Shown here one piece after another: positions 7,899-59,098 of a stretch of 64,000 bases of DNA. The DNA comes from Haloterrigena alkaliphila (lineage in GTDB: Archaea > Halobacteriota > Halobacteria > Halobacteriales > Natrialbaceae), in assembly GCF_017352155.2 (NCBI RefSeq), contig NZ_CP071462.1:2790001-2854000 (forward strand), in the 5' to 3' direction. A program made the translations under genes and the position numbers. The notes beneath the pieces are model-generated. The model did not search any database. It worked only from the letters and a program-made list of their open reading frames with translations, and was not told the origin of the DNA. Numbering within the stretch: position 1 is the stretch's first letter; every line of letters begins with the position of its first letter.

Positions 7899-9146
7899 TC
7901 AGTCGGCGATCGCCTCGCTCGCCTCCGCCTCCTGCGTGACGTCTTTCACCCAGAGGTCGCCGAACAGTTCGTCCTGCTCGAGGCGGATTCGGCCCCGGTG
8001 GGCGAGAAAGAGCAGGGCCAGATACGTCATCACGCGCGTCCCGCCGACCTCGTCGATTTCGGCGTACAGCACCTCCTCGCGGTCGTTCTCGTAGTGGGCC
8101 TCGAGTTCGCCCTCGACGTCGTCGATGACGGTCTCGATGTCCTCCTCGTGGGTCGTGTGCGTGACGTCGTCGCTGGTCGGTTCGTCGTCGACCCGGAAGT
8201 CGTCGCCCGCGTGGTAGTTCAGCTCCTGGACGCCCCGGTCGTACCCCTGCGGGGAGTCGCTCGTGTCGTAACTGCGCGACTCCTTCCACCAGGAGCCGCG
8301 TTCGGCGCTTCGGAGTTCCCGGACCAGTTCGTCGAGGGTCTCGGGCTTCCCGCGGGCGTGCTTGCGCTCGAGCCGCCGTTCCATCTCCTCCTCGAGGTTC
8401 TCGACGGGATCGAACCCCGGCGGGTGTCCGCCGCCCGCACTGTCGTCGGCGTCCATCGGCCCCTCGTCCGCGAAGGGGGCCTCCCACGGCGGGAGTTCCT
8501 CCTCGTCGGGCTCGTCCGTCGCGAACAGTTCGTCGCTTTTCATCCGAAGGAGGACGCTCGCGTAGAACAGCGCCCGCCCCGAGGTCCGCAGGTCGGCGTC
8601 GTCGAGCGCCGAGAGGAACTTGTCCGTGACGCGTACGACGTCGATGTCCCACGGGTCGATCTCGCCGTTCTCGGCGAGCTGGACCAGCAGTTCGACGGGT
8701 TCGACCTCTTCCTCGTCGTCGTCCGCATCGCCTTCGGTTCCCTCTTCGTCCGCATCCGGCCCGCTCGAGGCCTCGTCTCCGTCGGCTTCCGAAAACTCGA
8801 GCATCGACTCCGCGGCCCCGGGTGATCCGTCCTCATCGCTCGAGTTCGAGTCCGAATCCGATTCTCCCGGCCGCTCGCGGTCTCGCGGTTCGCTCCGCTC
8901 ACCGCTCGACTGTTCGGAGCCGCCTGTCGGCGGCTCCCTCTCCTCGTGGCCGGCGATGTTCAGGGGGATGTCGTCTCTCCCGCCGTCGGTATAGAACTCG
9001 TCGTGATCATCGGACGGATCACTTCGCGACTCCTCGCTCGCGGGGTTGTCGCTCGCGTTTTCCGAGCCGCGTGGCGGCTCGCTACCTCGCGGGTCACTTC
9101 GTTCCCCGCTCGGTTGTTCGGAGTCGCTTCGCGACTCCCTAGTCAC
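7899..9146 (-). CDS. scpA: Segregation and condensation protein A (kleisin)
   Basis: ScpA is the kleisin that bridges the Smc head domains in the condensin-like complex compacting and segregating chromosomes. The N-terminal kleisin motif VELLVQLAENGEIDPWDIDV starts near residue 151. The C-terminal winged helix ends with YLALLFLAHRGRIRLEQ near residue 385. The GTG start at 9146 overlaps the smc stop by 8 nt, so translation is coupled. Residues 1-115 are unusually long and low complexity; their DNA contains at least three perfect hairpins (see repeats), while the short block DDIPLNIAGHEE near residues 58-69 resembles the normal kleisin leader. Confidence 0.93.
   Translation of the reverse strand: MTRESRSDSEQPSGERSDPRGSEPPRGSENASDNPASEESRSDPSDDHDEFYTDGGRDDIPLNIAGHEEREPPTGGSEQSSGERSEPRDRERPGESDSDSNSSDEDGSPGAAESMLEFSEADGDEASSGPDADEEGTEGDADDDEEEVEPVELLVQLAENGEIDPWDIDVVRVTDKFLSALDDADLRTSGRALFYASVLLRMKSDELFATDEPDEEELPPWEAPFADEGPMDADDSAGGGHPPGFDPVENLEEEMERRLERKHARGKPETLDELVRELRSAERGSWWKESRSYDTSDSPQGYDRGVQELNYHAGDDFRVDDEPTSDDVTHTTHEEDIETVIDDVEGELEAHYENDREEVLYAEIDEVGGTRVMTYLALLFLAHRGRIRLEQDELFGDLWVKDVTQEAEASEAIAD
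8916..8937. repeat. Perfect palindrome inside scpA
   Basis: Arms GGAGCCGCC and GGCGGCTCC (9 bp) flank a 4-nt loop. It encodes part of the acidic linker EREPPTGGSEQ, outside the conserved kleisin domains. Confidence 0.75.
9063..9081. repeat. Perfect palindrome inside scpA
   Basis: Arms CGAGCCGC and GCGGCTCG (8 bp) flank the triloop GTG. It encodes the GSEPPRGSE stretch near residues 21-29, absent from the conserved part of the family. Confidence 0.75.
9120..9138. repeat. Perfect palindrome at the scpA start, next to the smc stop
   Basis: Arms GGAGTCGC and GCGACTCC (8 bp) flank the triloop TTC. It encodes ESRSDS, residues 4-9 of ScpA, and begins 1 bp beyond the smc stop codon (9139-9141). Confidence 0.75.
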
Positions 9147-12100
9147 TCACTGGCACCTCCTCACCACTGGCATCGGCGCCGTCGCTCAGGTCGATCCCGG
9201 TGACGGCGCTGACGTTGTCCTGTTGCATCGTGACGCCGATGGCTCGCTCGGAGCGGTCGAGCATCGCCGAGCGGTGGGAGACGACGACGAACTGGGCCTC
9301 GTCGGCGAGTTCGTCGACCATCTCGCCGATGCGGTCGGCGTTGACCGCGTCGAGGAAGGCGTCGACCTCGTCTAAGGCGTAGAACGGCGCCGGGTTGTGC
9401 CGCTGGATGGCGAAGATGAAGGCCAGCGCGGTCAGGGACTTCTCGCCGCCCGACATCGCGTCGAGCCGCTGAATGGGCTTGTCGCCCGGCTGGGCCTTCA
9501 TCGTCAGCCCGCCGTCGAACGGATCTTCCTCGTCCTCGAGGTGGAGCGTCCCGGTCCCCTCCGAGAGCTTCTCGAAGATCTCGGTGAACTGCTCGGCGAT
9601 CTCGTCGTAGGAGTCCATGAACGTCTGCTTCTTCTGGGTCTCGTACTGTTCGATCCGGTCGCGGATCCCCTCGGCTTCCTCGACCAGCGTCGCCTTCGCG
9701 TCCTCGAGTTCCTCGAGGTCGCTGCGGACCTCGTCGTACTCGTCGATCGCGAGCATGTTGACCGGCTCCATGGCCTCCATGTCCGCCTGCAGGTACTCGA
9801 TCATCTCGAGGACGGTCTCGTGGTCGGGCACGTCCTCGGGGTCGTAGTCGCCGACCTCCGATTCGAGGCTCTCGATCTCCCACTCGAGGTCGCTCACGCG
9901 GCTGCGGGTCTCCTCGAGTTTGCTCTCGACGGCGTTGACCCGGTCCTGCTGCTGGTCGCGTTTCGTCCGCGCGTCCGAGAGTTCCTCCTTGAGGTCGCTG
10001 CGCTCCTCTTTGAGTTCGGCGAGTTCGTCTTCGAGGTCCTCGACGGCCTCGCGCTTCTCCTCGAGGGTCTCCCGCTTGCCCTCGATCGCTTCCTCGTACT
10101 CCTCGATCTTGTCCTCGTGTTCGGCCGTCCGGTTCTGGGCCGTCTCGATGTCGTCGTGGAGGTCCTCGATGGCGTCCTCGGCGTACTCCTTCTCGAGGCT
10201 CAGTTCGTTGAGCTTGCTATCGATATCGGCGATCTTCTCCTCGCGCTCGTCGATCTCGGCCTCGAGTTCTTCGATCTGGTCGGTGAGTTCGGGGATCTTC
10301 GAGTCGGCGAGTTCCCGTTCGAGTTCTTCGATGTCGGCCTCGATCTCCTCGATCGCGGCCGTCTTCTCCTCGATCTCGCCGGAGATTTCGGTCATCCGCT
10401 CGTCGACGGATTCGCGCTCGTCCTCGAGTTCTTCGAGGTCGTCCTCGAGGGACTCGATCTCGGCCTCGATCGACTCGCGGCGCTCGTCTAAACTCTCGAG
10501 TTCGCTCTCGATCGAGCGCACCTCGTCGGCCGCGTCGGTCTTCCGGTCGCGGGCGTCGTCGAGGCGCTCCTCGACGCCGCGGAGTTCCTCCCGCAGGGAC
10601 TCGCGTTCCTCCTGTAGTTCGGTGATCTGCTTGGCGACGCGCTCGAGTTGGCCCTCGCCGCCGCCGGTGAAGGAGTAGCGCGACCCGCTACCGGAACCGC
10701 CGGTCATCGCGCCGCTCTTCTCGACTAAGTCGCCGTCCAGCGTCACCATGCGGTAGTCGCCCATGTAGGAGCGGGCGGTCTCGAGGTCCTCGACGACGAG
10801 CGTGTCGCCGAGCACGTACGAGAAGACGCCGGCGTACTCCTGGTCGAAGTCGACGAGGTTGTACGCGAAGTCGACGACGCCCGGATCGCTCGGCGCGTTG
10901 GGCAGTCGCCGCTGGCTCATGTCCGTCAGCGGGAGGAACGTCGCCCGGCCCGCGTTGCGCGATTTGAGGTGGTCGATACACTGCTGGCCGACGACGTCGT
11001 CGTCGACGACCACGTTCGCGAGGCGGCCCCCCGCCGCGGTCTCGCAGGCCACGGCGTACTCGCCGGCCACGTTCCCCAGTTGTGCCACGGCGCCGTGGAC
11101 GCCGCCGATCCCCGCGTTGAGGATCGTCGTCACCGCGCGGCCGAACGAGGAGTCGCCGCTCTCGCCCGCGTTGGCCTCGAGTTCGGCGTACTCCTGTTGT
11201 TTCGCCTGAATTTCGTCGTCCAACTCGTCGACGTCCGACTGGAGGCGGCGCTTCTCCCCCTTGAGGTCGTCGACGACGCCCGCGATGTTCTCGCGGTTCG
11301 CTTCGGCCTTCTGGAGTTCCCGCTCGAGGTCGCTTCGCTGGCTCTCGATCTCGGGGATCTCCTCGCGTTTCTCCTCGATGGTGGCCTCCTTCTCGTCGAT
11401 CTCGTTCGATCGACGGCGGGCCTCGTCGAGCAGGCGGTCCTGCTCGCGCTGGCGGTCGTTCCGCTCCGTCTTGGCTTCCTCGAGTTCTTCCTTGCGCTCG
11501 GCGAGGTCGGCCTTCAGTTCGTCGAACTCGGTGTCGACGGCCTCGATCTCGGCCTCGAGTTCGTCGCGCTCGGTCTCCCGCTCTTGAATCTCGCTCTTGA
11601 TCGAGGCCTTCTCGAGTTTGTGATCGCGCATCTCGCTCTCGAGGTCGTCGATCTGCTCCTGCTTGCGGTCGATCTGGACGAACGCCTCGCGGCGGTTCGA
11701 TTCGGCCTCTTCGATGGCCTCCTCGCTGGCCTCGATCTTGTCCTCGAGGCGCGAAATCTCGCCCTTGATCTCCTCGATCTCGCTTTTGATCCGGAGCTGT
11801 TCGTCCTCGCCCTTGCGCTCGATCTCGGCGTTTAAGTCCTCGAGGTCCTCCTGTAAGCGGACGACCGCGCCCTGGCGCTCGTCGAGTTCCCGCTGGAGTT
11901 CCTCGAGGTCGTCGGCGAGTTCGTCGGCCTCCTCCTCGGCGCTCGCGAGTTCGTCGCGCTTCTCCTCGAGTTCGCTGGCCTTCTTGTACCCCTCGTACTC
12001 CTCCTTCTCGCGGCGCAGTCGGCGGTAGCGCATGGCTTCCCGCCGTTCGTCCGCGAGCTGGTCGAGTCGGTCGCGCTTCTCCTCGATCCGTAACTCGGCT

Positions 12101-18737: not shown

Positions 18738-19877
18738 ATGAAAGTTGCCCTGATCGGTGTTGGTCAGGCCGGTGGCAAGATCACTGAACGGCTCGCCCGC
18801 TTCGACGCGGAGATGGGCTACGGAGCCGTTCAGGGCGCACTGGCCGTCAACTCCGCCGAACCCGACCTCCGCTCCCTCCAGCACGTCGATACCCAGTTGA
18901 TCGGCGCCGACCGCGTCAACGGCCACGGCGTCGGCGGCGACAACGAACTCGGCACCGAAGTCATGCAGTCGGACATCCAGCAGGTGCTCGGCTCGCTCGA
19001 CGGCCGCGTCACCTCGAAAGCCGAGGCCGTCTTCGTCGTCGCGGGGCTTGGCGGCGGGACCGGCAGCGGCGGCGCGCCGGTCCTCGTCCACCACCTCCAG
19101 CGGGTCTACGACGTCCCCGTCTACGCGCTCGGCGTCCTGCCGGGGCGCAACGAGGGGACGCTCTACCAGGCCAACGCGGGCCGCTCGCTGAAGACGATCA
19201 TCCGCGAGGCCGACTCGACGCTGCTGGTCGACAACGACGCCTGGCACGAACAGGGCGAGAGCGTCGAAGGCGCATTCGAGACGATCAACGAGCGGATCGC
19301 TCAGCGCGTCGGCCTCCTCTTCGCGTCCGGCGAAGCCGTCGAGGGCGTCGGCGAGAGTAGCGTGACGTCGAAGACGTCACGAACGAGAGGCGGCGCAGCC
19401 GCCGCTAGCGTGGTCGACTCGAGCGAGGTCATCAACACCCTGCGGGCGGGCGGCATCGCCGCGCTGGGCTACGCGACCGAACTCGCGAGCGAGGACAGCG
19501 CCGAGAACATCAACACCGCGATGAGCGTCTCGCGGCAGGCCCTGCTGACCGGGACCAGTCTCCCGGACGCGACGACCGCCGATTCGGCGCTGCTGGTCGT
19601 CGCCGGCGAACCCGAACGGATCCCCCGCAAGGGCGTCGAGCGCGCGCGCCGGTGGCTCGAGGACGAGACCGGCAGCATGGAGGTTCGGGGCGGGGACTTC
19701 CCCCTCGAGAGCGATCGACTCGGCGCGCTGGTGTTGCTCGGCGGCGCGGAACGCTCCGATCGAATCCAACAGTTCATGGAACGCGCACGCGAAGCGAAGA
19801 AGGCTCAGGAACGCGAGGACCGGTCGTCGGATCCGGCCGAACAGTTCGCCGACGATCGCCTCGAGAATCTCTTTTAG
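18738..19877 (+). CDS. cetZ: CetZ-family tubulin homologue with a palindromic in-frame insertion
   Basis: CetZ proteins are archaeal tubulin/FtsZ relatives that control cell shape and motility. The GTP-binding elements are intact: VALIGVGQAGGK (residues 3-14), GHGVGGDNELG, and the tubulin signature GLGGGTGSGGAP near residue 104. The N-terminal VNSA and C-terminal helix also fit CetZ; the 379-residue length is in range. Residues about 207-223 (SVTSKTSRTRGGAAAAS) are extra: they come from a 48-bp block bounded by 7-bp direct repeats and carrying two hairpins, immediately before the conserved VVDSSEVINTL. Which CetZ subgroup it belongs to is not clear. Confidence 0.93.
   Translation: MKVALIGVGQAGGKITERLARFDAEMGYGAVQGALAVNSAEPDLRSLQHVDTQLIGADRVNGHGVGGDNELGTEVMQSDIQQVLGSLDGRVTSKAEAVFVVAGLGGGTGSGGAPVLVHHLQRVYDVPVYALGVLPGRNEGTLYQANAGRSLKTIIREADSTLLVDNDAWHEQGESVEGAFETINERIAQRVGLLFASGEAVEGVGESSVTSKTSRTRGGAAAASVVDSSEVINTLRAGGIAALGYATELASEDSAENINTAMSVSRQALLTGTSLPDATTADSALLVVAGEPERIPRKGVERARRWLEDETGSMEVRGGDFPLESDRLGALVLLGGAERSDRIQQFMERAREAKKAQEREDRSSDPAEQFADDRLENLF
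19358..19412 (+). repeat. Palindromic insertion in cetZ with 7-bp flanking direct repeats
   Basis: TAGCGTG occurs at 19358-19364 and 19406-19412. Between them lie a 9-bp-arm hairpin (CGTGACGTC-GAA-GACGTCACG, 19361-19381) and a 6-bp-arm hairpin (GGCGGC-GCA-GCCGCC, 19389-19403). The repeat interval is 48 bp, so the reading frame is kept; removing it restores GESSVVDSSEV, close to other CetZ proteins. Confidence 0.85.
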
Positions 19878-28530: not shown

Positions 28531-28561
28531 GTCCCGCGAGCGAACGCAGTGAGCGAGCGGC

Positions 28562-28567
28562 TTTTTT
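28562..28567 (+). terminator. Oligo-T transcription terminator after dph6
   Basis: Six consecutive T residues in an otherwise G+C-rich stretch, 32 bp past the stop codon. Archaeal RNA polymerase terminates intrinsically at such runs on the non-template strand. Confidence 0.5.
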
Positions 28568-28600
28568 CGGTCTCTTCGCGAACGAAGTGAGCGAAGGTCA

Positions 28601-28619
28601 GCGAGAGCGAAGCTCTCGC
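28601..28619. repeat. Perfect GAA-triloop palindrome downstream of dph6
   Basis: Arms GCGAGAGC and GCTCTCGC (8 bp) flank the loop GAA. This is the same architecture as the hairpins at 58.6-58.9 kb and in cetZ. Confidence 0.7.
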
Positions 28620-28680
28620 CAGACAGATTTTTGCGCCGAGTGGTTCGCGAGCGAATCCCGAGGCGGAAAAAGGTGGTTCT

Positions 28681-55333: not shown

Positions 55334-56617
55334 ATGACCGACCGGAGCGACGCCGACGAGCGATCGACCGACGAACCCCCCTCGATCGCTCCCGAGACGC
55401 TGGCCGACCGACTGCGATCCGGCGACGACCTGACCGTCCTCGACGTCCGCGACCGCGACGAGTTCGAACGGTGGCACCTCGAGGGCGAGGGGATCGAGGC
55501 CGTCCAGATTCCGCATATGAAGTTCATCCAGGCTCAGGCCACGGGCGGCGTGATCGATCTCGTGGCCGACCTCGGGGAACCGATCGTCGCGGTCTGTGGC
55601 CGCGGGGAAGCGAGCGCCTACGCCGTCGGACTCCTCCGAGAGGCGGGCGTCGACGCGGCCAACCTCGCCGGCGGGATGGACGCCTGGGCCGACCTGTACC
55701 TCGCCCGCGAACTCGAGGTCGACGCGCCGGCGACGGTCGTTCAGTACGATCGGCCCTCGAGCGGCTGTCTCTCCTACGCGATCTATAGCAACGGCGAGGT
55801 AGCGGTGATCGACCCGCTCCGCGCGTTCGCCGACCGGTACGTCGACGACGCAGCCGATCGGAACGCGACGATCGAGTACGCGATCGACACGCACGTCCAC
55901 GCGGACCACGTCAGCGGCGTTCGGACCCTCGGGGACCGGGCCGGTGCGGAGTCGGTCGTCCCCGTAGGCGCCACGGATCGCGGCCTCGCGTTCGACGCGT
56001 CGACGGTCGAACACGGGGACGAACTGCGAATCGGCGATGCGACGCTGACTGCGGTAGCGACGCCGGGCCACACCACCGAGTCGGTCTCGTACCGGCTCGG
56101 CGACCTCCTGTTCACCGGCGACACGCTCTTCCTCGAGGGGGTCGGCCGACCGGACCTCGAGGAGAGCGCGGCGCAACGCGCCGCGGACAGTCGAGTAGCG
56201 AGGGACTCCAAGAGTTCCTCGAACCGTGCGAGCGGGCCAGAGGCCCGCGAGCAGACGGTGAAACCGCGAGACGGCGACGAGGGAGCGGCCGACATAGCCC
56301 GAGAGCTGTACGAGACGCTACGCGATCGACTCGAGAGCGTTCCGAATACGACGACGATCGCTCCGGGCCACTACAGCCCCGCCGCCGAACCCCAGGGGAA
56401 CGGAACGTACACCGCACGCCTCGGCGCGCTCCGTGAGCGGCTCGAGGCGTTCTCGATGGACGAGGCTGCGTTCGTCGAGCGCGCGACGAGCGATCTCCCG
56501 CCGCGGCCGGCCAACCACGAGCGCATCGTCGCCGTCAATCTCGGCCGCGAGGAGGTCGACAGGGAGACGGCGTTCGAACTCGAGCTCGGGCCGAACAACT
56601 GCGCGGTCGCCGATTGA
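55334..56617 (+). CDS. Rhodanese plus metallo-beta-lactamase-fold hydrolase with palindromic insertion
   Basis: The 427-residue protein joins an N-terminal rhodanese domain (residues about 18-120, active-site Cys in VAVCGRGEAS) to an MBL domain with THVHADHVSG near residue 192, TPGHTTESVSYR near 240 and LLFTGDTLFLEGVGRPDL near 256. This is the persulfide-dioxygenase/glyoxalase-II-like architecture, probably acting in sulfur or persulfide metabolism. After GRPDLEE the protein carries about 35 extra, low-complexity residues, whose DNA contains three hairpins, before the family sequence resumes at DEGAADIARELYETL. Start at MTDRSDADE. Confidence 0.9.
   Translation: MTDRSDADERSTDEPPSIAPETLADRLRSGDDLTVLDVRDRDEFERWHLEGEGIEAVQIPHMKFIQAQATGGVIDLVADLGEPIVAVCGRGEASAYAVGLLREAGVDAANLAGGMDAWADLYLARELEVDAPATVVQYDRPSSGCLSYAIYSNGEVAVIDPLRAFADRYVDDAADRNATIEYAIDTHVHADHVSGVRTLGDRAGAESVVPVGATDRGLAFDASTVEHGDELRIGDATLTAVATPGHTTESVSYRLGDLLFTGDTLFLEGVGRPDLEESAAQRAADSRVARDSKSSSNRASGPEAREQTVKPRDGDEGAADIARELYETLRDRLESVPNTTTIAPGHYSPAAEPQGNGTYTARLGALRERLEAFSMDEAAFVERATSDLPPRPANHERIVAVNLGREEVDRETAFELELGPNNCAVAD
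56167..56266. repeat. Cluster of palindromes inserted in the rhodanese-MBL gene
   Basis: Hairpins are: 56167-56185 (CGCGGCGC-AAC-GCGCCGCG), 56199-56221 (10-bp arms with one G-T mismatch, loop CAA), 56232-56248 (GCGGGCC-AGA-GGCCCGC), and a short one at 56256-56266 (CGGT-GAA-ACCG). All lie in the residues absent from the usual family sequence and keep the frame open. Confidence 0.8.
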
Positions 56618-57224: not shown

Positions 57225-58628
57225 ATGAGTACGCAGGAGCAGTCGGCGACCGCGACGTCCGAGACGGACGCGCCGGACGTCGTCGTCGTCGGCGCGGGGA
57301 CCGCAGGGTGTTACGCCGCAGCGACCGTCGCGCGCGAGGGGTACGACGTCGTCGTCCTCGAGCGCAAGTCCGAGGAAGAGGCGGGCCACATCGCCTGCGG
57401 GGACGCGCTGAAGGGCGCCGACGCCTTCCCCGAGTCGATTCCGAAATCGCAGATCGAGTCCGCGTTCACCAACACGGGCGTCGATCACGGCCGCTTCGAG
57501 ATCCCGCAGGAGGATACGGTCCTGGAGATTCCGATCCCCGGCGAACTTGCGGTCATCGACCGCTGGGAGTACGGCCGCCTGATCATCGAGGGCGCGGCGG
57601 ACGCGGGCGCCGAGTTCCACTACGATACGGTCGTGAAGAACGTCACGCAGGCCGACGACAGCCGTGTGACTGGCGTCGAGGCGATCCGGAAGGGCGAGCC
57701 CCGACGCTACGAGGCCGACGTGGTGATCGACGCCGCGGGGTCGCTGTCGGTCCTGCAGGACAACGTCGACTTCTCGACGTCGACGTTCGACACCAACGTC
57801 AACTACAGCCACTTCTGCTCGGCCTACCGCGAGATCGTCCACGTCGACGAACCGGTCGAGTGGCACGACGCGCTCGTGTTCAAGCCGACCGAGCGCGCGG
57901 CGGGCTACCTCTGGTACTTCCCGCGGACCGAGACGGAGATCAACGCCGGACTCGGCTTCCAGATGACCGAGGAACCCATGAAACTGGTCGACGACCTCAA
58001 ACGCGACCTCGAGAATCGCCCCGAGTTCGCCGGCGCAGCGGTCGAGGACAAACTCGGCGCCGCCCTCCCCACCCGGCGGCCCTACGACTCCGCGGTCCAC
58101 CCGGGCTACATGGCCGTCGGCGACGCCGCGGGTCACGTCAACCCCACCACCGGCGGCGGCATCGCGGGCGCCGCCTACGCCGGCAAGTACGCCGCCGAAG
58201 CGGCGATCGAGGGCCTCGAGACCGGCGACGTCGGCGAGAAGGCGCTCTGGGAGTACAACGAGCGGGTGATGGACCACTTCGGCGCGCGCTACGCCGCCCT
58301 GGACGTCTACAACATCCTCTCGACGGCCGTCGACGTCGACGACCTGATGGGGCTACTCGCCGCCATGCCCGGCGAGAAACTCGCGGAGGCGCTGTACTCC
58401 GGCAGCACGAGCATCGGCCCGAAACTCGCCCTCGAGAGCCTCTACAAGAGCCGCGACCACTGGGGCACCATCTGGAACCTCTTCCAGACCAAGCGCCGCG
58501 CCGACGACCTGCTCGAACTCTACGAGCACTACCCGAACCATCCCGCCGCCCTCGAGCACTGGCAGCAGCGCCGCGACGACGTGATGGAGGCCATCTACGA
58601 GACGACCGGGGCTGACCCTAAATACTAA
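57225..58628 (+). CDS. Geranylgeranyl reductase family FAD protein
   Basis: The 467-residue flavoprotein belongs to the archaeal digeranylgeranylglycerophospholipid reductase type, saturating isoprenoid chains of archaeol lipids, possibly also of menaquinone. The N-terminal FAD loop VVVGAGTAGCYAAATVAREG (residues 21-40) is followed by the family CGDAL block, a flavin segment VGDAAGHVNPTTGGGIAGA near residue 302, and the family's PxxYxWxFP-like YLWYFP segment near residue 230. A divergent ferredoxin gene may provide electrons, as ferredoxin-dependent reduction is known for this family. TATA-like TTTTCT precedes the ATG. Confidence 0.93.
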   Translation: MSTQEQSATATSETDAPDVVVVGAGTAGCYAAATVAREGYDVVVLERKSEEEAGHIACGDALKGADAFPESIPKSQIESAFTNTGVDHGRFEIPQEDTVLEIPIPGELAVIDRWEYGRLIIEGAADAGAEFHYDTVVKNVTQADDSRVTGVEAIRKGEPRRYEADVVIDAAGSLSVLQDNVDFSTSTFDTNVNYSHFCSAYREIVHVDEPVEWHDALVFKPTERAAGYLWYFPRTETEINAGLGFQMTEEPMKLVDDLKRDLENRPEFAGAAVEDKLGAALPTRRPYDSAVHPGYMAVGDAAGHVNPTTGGGIAGAAYAGKYAAEAAIEGLETGDVGEKALWEYNERVMDHFGARYAALDVYNILSTAVDVDDLMGLLAAMPGEKLAEALYSGSTSIGPKLALESLYKSRDHWGTIWNLFQTKRRADDLLELYEHYPNHPAALEHWQQRRDDVMEAIYETTGADPKY

Positions 58629-59098
58629 GGAGCGAACTTTTGCTCTGCGTGCGGTCGCGAAGCGACCGCACTCGGCAAAATCTTCAAAAGAGCCCTTTGC
58701 GCTCTTTTGGACAGCGAGGGACCGGAGGTCCCTCGGGCAGTCGGCGCGAAGCGCCGACGACCTCGCGGGATCTTCGATCCCGCTCAGCGTCGATGAAAAG
58801 CACTCCTCCTTCCGTTCCGTGACGCGATGCGTCACTTCACATCAGTCGTCGGCCCGCTCGCTCCCTTCGGTCGCTCGCGGTCGGCGACTGGGGACAGCCT
58901 GCCCTTCCCCGGGTCACGGGCTCCTCGCAGTGCTCGGAGCCCGCTCCCGGCCGGGATGTTCGAGTCGATCCCCCTAACTTGTGCGACAAGGCGGATCAGC
59001 CGAAAACGTTGATCGGTTCATGACTTAAACTAGTTCTGGCCAAAACCCTTCTCTGTTAGGGTATCTCTCCATTCCTGTCGAGCGGATACATAGTCTCG
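58629..59098. other. 470-bp region without a gene, built of stacked palindromes
   Basis: At least seven strong hairpins occur between 58638 and 58943 with almost no spacing. The rest, to 59098, contains AT-rich promoter-like sequence before the DUF4397 lipoprotein gene. No protein or known RNA gene is recognised. Confidence 0.7.
58638..58943. repeat. Array of perfect palindromes (hairpin array)
   Basis: Stems: 58650-58670 (TGCGGTCGC-GAA-GCGACCGCA, enclosed by outer TTTTGC/GCAAAA to 58680), 58685-58709 (CAAAAGAGC, 7-nt loop), 58715-58735 (CGAGGGACC-GGA), 58740-58758 (GTCGGCGC-GAA), 58765-58783 (GCGGGATC-TTC), 58819-58835 (GTGACGC-GAT) and 58917-58943 (CGGGCTCC, 11-nt loop). Five of seven have 3-nt loops; arm sequences differ. 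Confidence 0.88.

Follow-up and report, generated by a model that had tools for sequence, protein, structure and literature searches.

The question raised by this locus is how a block of two hairpins came to lie, in frame, within the cetZ gene of Haloterrigena alkaliphila, and whether it arrived there by an isolated jump or as a copy of something more widespread. The window analysed is a 64-kb stretch of the chromosome (positions 2790001-2854000), and the named relatives are Natrialbaceae. An earlier note had read the block as an insertion of 48 bp, adding 16 residues and bounded by a 7-bp target-site duplication. Our analysis leads to a different account: it appears probable that the block is a copy of a haloarchaeal coding palindromic element, which entered cetZ2 once in an ancestor and owes its patchy occurrence to short-tract recombination.

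Anatomy and size of the insert

The host protein corresponds to CetZ2 both in sequence and in fold: phmmer matches it to 4b45_A, CetZ2 from H. volcanii and the nearest solved structure (E 6e-138), and the AF2 model of the insert-bearing protein retains the CetZ2 fold (TM 0.86/0.98 versus 4b45_A). Relatives without the insert read GVGES|VVDSSEV, and the window gene carries 17 extra residues (not 16) between GES and VVDSSE, in frame and with the ORF intact at 379 aa, so that the gene is unbroken, as had been claimed. The inserted DNA is TAGCGTGACGTCGAAGACGTCACGAACGAGAGGCGGCGCAGCCGCCGCTAG, its peptide, flanking serine included, is SSVTSKTSRTRGGAAAAS, and the tryptic junction peptide would end in VVDSSEVINTLR. 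Since deletion of 51 bp yields exactly the relatives' protein, the insert measures 51 bp and not 48 bp; deletion of 48 bp leaves GESSVVDSSEV, which the earlier note had taken for nearly uninterrupted CetZ and which does continue into VVDSSE, but has one serine too many when compared with the relatives' GES|VVDSSEV. The sole junction ambiguity is 2 bp (AG) at the left boundary.

Both hairpins and both copies of TAGCGTG lie where they had been reported (Table 1). The left copy is retained in all five carriers known to us (introduced below), its GTG belonging to stem 1, and the GTG of the right copy is the host Val codon. A target-site duplication is rejected, because the empty site, GAGAG|CGTGGTC within GAGAGCGTGG, contains no TAGCGTG and because the right copy is changed in three carriers (TAGTGTC in L017, TAGTGTA in L036 and AAGCGTC in L060). 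An empty site had been expected in near relatives, and is found there, but it does not hold the single TAGCGTG that was to mark it. The window has 58 cases of a 7-mer that recurs after exactly 48 bp. A jump of the MITE type that left a 7-bp duplication, for which the presence of TAGCGTG on both sides speaks, is thus scarcely credible: such repeats are common, the edges of the gap do not coincide with them (a disagreement that the earlier note had itself named as telling against its reading), and in place of the target-site duplication of a MITE the junctions offer just the 2 ambiguous bases.

Of 200 shuffled versions of the 66-nt block at the insert, 193 fold less well than the real sequence, and the 4.27-Mb genome contains the exact hairpin a single time. 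Rfam gave no match at the insert, and none reaching the gathering threshold anywhere in the window. The insert adjoins a catalytic motif, is patchily distributed and is conserved as DNA, as would be an archaeal intron spliced from the mRNA to leave CetZ2 unchanged. Such a reading is nonetheless highly improbable, as the junctions of all carriers lack a bulge-helix-bulge (a 4-bp helix between two 3-nt bulges), the length is constantly 51 bp with the frame open, and related elements are one-frame coding insertions in many genes.

Table 1. Features of the window discussed in the text, with positions counted from its first letter.
Feature	Position	Strand	Evidence
cetZ, host gene, CetZ2-type GTPase of the tubulin/FtsZ superfamily	18738..19877	+	intact ORF, 379 aa; phmmer; AF2 model
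51-bp in-frame palindromic element, adding 17 residues	19358..19408	+	present or absent in cetZ2 genes; R1 match
Left TAGCGTG, part of the element	19358..19364	+	retained in 5/5 carriers
Hairpin 1, CGTGACGTC-GAA-GACGTCACG	19361..19381	+	perfect 9-bp arms 19361-19369/19373-19381, GAA loop
Hairpin 2, GGCGGC-GCA-GCCGCC	19389..19403	+	6-bp arms 19389-19394/19398-19403, GCA loop
Right TAGCGTG, element end plus host Val codon, chance repeat	19406..19412	+	not conserved in L017, L036, L060
Start of presumed host T7-loop segment (VVDSSEV), immediately 3' of the insert	19409..19429	+	alignment with 4b45/4b46
Second family member, apparently intergenic	58710..58761	+	R1 55.6 bits, E 3.6e-16

A family of two-hairpin coding elements

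R1, a covariance model trained on 26 elements of other genes and on no cetZ sequence, matches the window insert at 19356-19406 (31.9 bits, E 2.3e-8; genome-wide E 1.5e-6) and the insert in five of five carriers (E 2e-8 to 1e-4), all R1 E-values being rough; at the cetZ2 site of nine non-carriers it gave no significant match. The wider palindromic family proposed earlier is thus borne out by a model that has seen no cetZ copy. Like other members, the cetZ insert lies in frame on the sense strand with the codon phase AGC GNN ... CGA. The main subtypes start with GAC/ACC, end with GTCGAC and encode the acidic peptide RADGEAVD, whereas the cetZ copy has AGT...GCTAGC ends, a basic peptide (charge +3) and three extra nucleotides in the spacer, and we therefore count it, as judged from these traits, as a divergent member. 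All cetZ copies have in common the features confined to cetZ, i.e., the three extra spacer bases, the leading AGT and CTAG or CAAG ends. No donor copy of the cetZ type was found outside cetZ, either in the same genome or among 391 genomes.

The second copy in the window, GACAGCG[AGGGACC-GGA-GGTCCCT]CGGGCAG[TCGGCGC-GAA-GCGCCGA]CGAC, is a stronger R1 match than the cetZ insert and the strongest family member there. It is one of four GNA/TTC-loop hairpins clustered at 58600-58850. Further hairpin-rich stretches are an array at 56160-56290 flanked by AGCG...CGAAC, with a weak R1 match at 56228-56270 (E 4e-5), and palindromic blocks with TTC/GAA loops of a looser haloarchaeal type at 8850-9200 and 28550-28680.

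Across genomes the units measure 45-57 bp, contain two GNA-loop hairpins and encode typical peptides such as DSEGSEIPRADGEAVD and TSVASETQRADGEAVD. Searching with the cetZ hairpin and its flanks revealed the recurring unit AGCG-hairpin-CGRRCAGAC, and with the stem left open (17 N) we obtained 47 matches in 382 genomes; most N17 are 7-3-7 palindromes with differing stems, and many matches sit inside protein genes in a shared frame. A 25-nt query comprising the 3' half alone, and hence imposing no condition on hairpin 1, gave 26 matches in 111 Natrialbaceae genomes. All but one lie inside an ORF, in one sense frame (...RADGEAVD) and in about 15 different host genes, and for most of these 25 the codon-position GC contrast supports coding; a coding element in L256 reads QADGEAVD instead. 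In-frame hosts include hisH, sufS, thioredoxin reductase, biotin carboxylase, ribonucleotide reductase, P-type ATPase and thiolase, among others. Pfam names for the host genes include ribonucleotide reductase, cysteine desulfurase (class-V aminotransferase), thiolase, nitrite/sulfite reductase, P-type ATPase, carboxyl transferase, class I tRNA synthetase, glucose/sorbosone dehydrogenase, pyridine nucleotide-disulphide oxidoreductase and cupin. As all six frames of the consensus element are open, the use of a single frame is not due to stop codons. The frame in use is the most acidic (-5 and -3, with 0 to +5 for the remaining ones), a choice that would fit if basic loops are selected against in proteins adapted to salt.

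Filled and empty sites are likewise seen outside cetZ. The hisH site is empty (GVDGEYAYFVHSY or similar) in eight genomes and filled, typically with 57 bp, in about ten examined, its GTCGAC flanks being ambiguous as to target-site duplication. Within the genus of the window, a thioredoxin-reductase-like gene is filled in one genome (G005) and empty in another (G002), and this pair shows no clear target-site duplication. Solved homologues of biotin carboxylase are gapped at the element position. The H. alkaliphila genome has eleven R1 copies at E <1e-5; among them are in-frame copies in L295, within a Dna2-like helicase/nuclease gene, and in L305, within a thioredoxin-reductase-like gene. In a phylum-wide sample, R1 matches (E 1e-6 or better) were obtained for 18 of 24 haloarchaea and for 0 of 124 other genomes.

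Several sites are more complex. At hisH, L203, L204 and L206 carry other, non-palindromic insertions (e.g., GPGAADPDGTADSDRSVDGEY), which are perhaps decayed elements or perhaps reflect a generally permissive loop. In the thioredoxin-reductase-like genes of L305 and L307 the element is followed by further low-complexity sequence, which suggests secondary insertions at one site, and in L240 (1500-1592) one ORF includes a tandem pair of in-frame copies (EAVDSEGDGSHRADGEAVDSEGPEPPRADGEAVD). Intergenic copies in L118, L134, L152, L166, L141 and L143 have longer conserved flanks (CGCGATTCACGCCCGCCGTGAACAGCG...GACGGCGGGATTCTCTCGCTG) and may represent an IS end; some of them immediately precede tnpB genes or follow a small ORF, and L118 and L152 give sub-threshold Rfam matches to sot0042. 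Adjacency to tnpB, which would suit an IS605/tnpB end, is seen for some intergenic relatives in other families, and was not seen for coding copies.

The stems vary pairwise. Among 26 distinct elements, 96.7% of the two-hairpin cells pair, a value inflated by the fact that listing an element demanded at least 6/9 stem 1 pairs, and covariation amounts to 0.296 versus 0.102 when shuffled (0/500), being lost once the register is slid. In the 26 matches obtained with no such filter, the six free stem 1 pairs are 6/6 in 16, 5/6 in 6 and 3-4/6 in 4. Within hisH orthologues alone, there are 12 double-sided stem 1 changes versus 4.5 expected (0/500). Several processes could lie behind such paired changes: selection that acts on the hairpin, a fresh exchange of one copy for another, or correction of imperfect palindromes by template switching. 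The last process leads to the view that the cetZ insert is a local indel whose palindromes were made or kept by quasi-palindrome mutation, with no mobile family involved; indeed, perfect short hairpins are in excess in haloarchaeal genomes (in 400 kb of genome stretches, those with a 3-nt loop and a stem of 8 or more are 2-3-fold over shuffles), and template switching could also preserve perfect stems elsewhere in the family. However, the R1 matches in cetZ argue strongly against a purely local origin, and the homology with elements in unrelated genes, the shared frame and spacer, and the identity of the insert in distant species leave this view with a very small probability, albeit one not quite as slim as that of an intron.

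Distribution and probable spread among cetZ2 genes

Among 82 cetZ2 genes taken from related genomes, five have the insert, always at the identical site, and 77 lack it. Besides the window, the carriers comprise Natrinema ejinorense (L017), Natronococcus pandeyae (L036), a genome of the Natrialbaceae (G123, L162) and a MAG that resembles Haloarcula (L060); G205/L161 looks conspecific with the N. ejinorense carrier. Genus mates and nearest relatives of the carriers have the empty site, and since the site is empty in the genus mates of the window and in over 70 other relatives, the claim of an insertion in cetZ holds. The extra residues are hence not common to all close orthologues; their presence in all of these, with non-palindromic DNA, is what the earlier note had named as fatal to its reading. 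The insert of the window is no fresh isolated jump, since four further cetZ2 genes, some of them distant, carry the same insert at the same nucleotide.

A cetZ2 protein tree built without the insert needs five changes, of which at least four are forced by well-supported branches, so that spread was probably lateral. When compared with L162, the window insert differs at 0/51 bp and the flanking third codon positions at 28% (P 0.0035); the corresponding values for L036 are 1/51 bp and 36%. In L060 the stems are unchanged and the loops altered (GAA to TTC and GCA to CCT). Just upstream of the window insert, third positions show a similarity of 0.80 to the other carriers versus 0.40 to the window's own genus, no other among the 261 sliding bins being as extreme, with a footprint of 10 codons. 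This co-conversion footprint is visible in the window only, the test being negative for L162 and L017.

Two other histories have to be weighed. The insert might be ancestral to haloarchaeal cetZ2 and have been precisely lost from most lineages, in agreement with its constant nucleotide position and a sequence that is recognizable across two families belonging to the order. The exact 51 bp would then have to have been lost dozens of times, the sister species of each carrier is empty, and carriers of different genera combine near-identical inserts with diverged flanks; we thus regard this history as unlikely, even if it fares best among the alternatives. Slightly less likely still is a site-specific element that inserted afresh at the cetZ2 site time and again: the five separate changes on the tree would suit it, as would hisH, which is likewise filled at one site in many genomes, but the features confined to cetZ are common to all cetZ copies, and the search described above found no donor of the cetZ type. 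It is thus most likely that the insert moved between species by short recombination. On this preferred reading, a single ancestral insertion would have taken place immediately 5' of the T7 loop, and the patchy occupancy most likely arose through short-tract homologous recombination between the cetZ2 genes of different species.

Predicted effect on CetZ2

The earlier note had proposed to place the extra loop on a CetZ structure. In the AF2 model (core pTM 0.85), residues 202-223 form a low-confidence loop (pLDDT <50) that separates the long central helix (176-199) from the next helix (228-235). From knowledge of the FtsZ/tubulin fold, we take the VVDSSEV segment to belong to the T7 loop, and the model thus predicts a disordered loop preceding this catalytic loop. 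In filaments of FtsZ and tubulin each subunit's T7 loop serves to complete the GTPase site of the one that follows, and it is therefore plausible that the insert affects CetZ2 polymerisation. We infer that the loop is translated and that CetZ2 filaments tolerate the insert. Natural CetZ2 insertion variants next to the T7 loop are now at hand; at the same time, a loop of the element type in a haloarchaeal enzyme is not necessarily adaptive.

Possible mode of propagation and comparison with known systems

The propagating unit would have the form AGCG[stem 1]GNA[stem 1']CGRRC..[stem 2]GNA[stem 2'], i.e., two consecutive GNA-loop hairpins in about 45-57 bp, and would enter genes on one strand and in one reading frame so as to be translated into a flexible loop. 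GNA-loop hairpins are unusually stable structures of single-stranded DNA, and copying via a single-strand (hairpin) intermediate is therefore an attractive, unproven guess. Haloarchaeal plasmids contain partial element matches in four cases. A viral or phage carrier was rejected: viral contigs hold no hairpin of the cetZ type (one contig has a related single hairpin), and viral contigs and phages gave no PRADGEAVD-type match.

With MITEs the elements share that they are short, non-autonomous and dispersed, but the unit has no enclosing terminal inverted repeats, no constant target-site duplication and no autonomous partner that we could find. REPs are mostly extragenic and have a conserved foot, GTAG. 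REP/REPIN sequences with their RAYT (Y1) transposases are similar in being short dispersed hairpins with many copies per genome; many haloarchaeal copies, in contrast, are coding and lack a GTAG consensus, and three of six genomes of the genus (G001-G003), all three element-rich, have no Y1 transposase. Identity with REPIN/RAYT was rejected also in view of the four Y1 loci searched, which have no confident element copy alongside. Inteins and archaeal introns likewise occupy, patchily, a conserved site near a catalytic motif, but the cetZ insert has just 17 residues and neither splicing motifs nor a bulge-helix-bulge.

Among the papers searched, which include few of the subscription ones, none contains PRADGEAVD or shortened forms, a search for palindromic elements in haloarchaeal genes returned nothing relevant, and no archaeal description of such elements was found; novelty is hence provisional, and the two-hairpin coding family is apparently undescribed so far. 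We tentatively entertain, at somewhat less than even chances, that these 45-57 bp coding mini-elements form a haloarchaeal class of their own, which would propagate by an undescribed hairpin-dependent route (neither MITE nor RAYT) with stems varying pairwise and frame and spacers fixed, and which would systematically add short loops, mostly acidic, to core enzymes and, once, a loop at a tubulin-like polymerisation site.

The closest known kind, by analogy, would be the Rickettsia palindromic elements, reportedly described by Ogata et al. in 2000. Rickettsia provides the best-known case of palindromes that proliferate in frame within protein genes, and how general this is had been unclear. Those elements are short palindromes of about 150 bp, bacterial, inserted in frame in unrelated protein genes and encoding a conserved peptide (PMC10969869). 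The haloarchaeal elements are likewise palindromic, in frame in unrelated protein genes and associated with a conserved peptide, but they are GC-rich units of 45-57 bp with two GNA-loop hairpins, and the comparison is one of descriptions, with no sequence relation shown. They appear to offer an independent archaeal system in which culturable hosts, filled and empty sites within a genus and strong covariation make both the movement of the elements and their effects on proteins testable.
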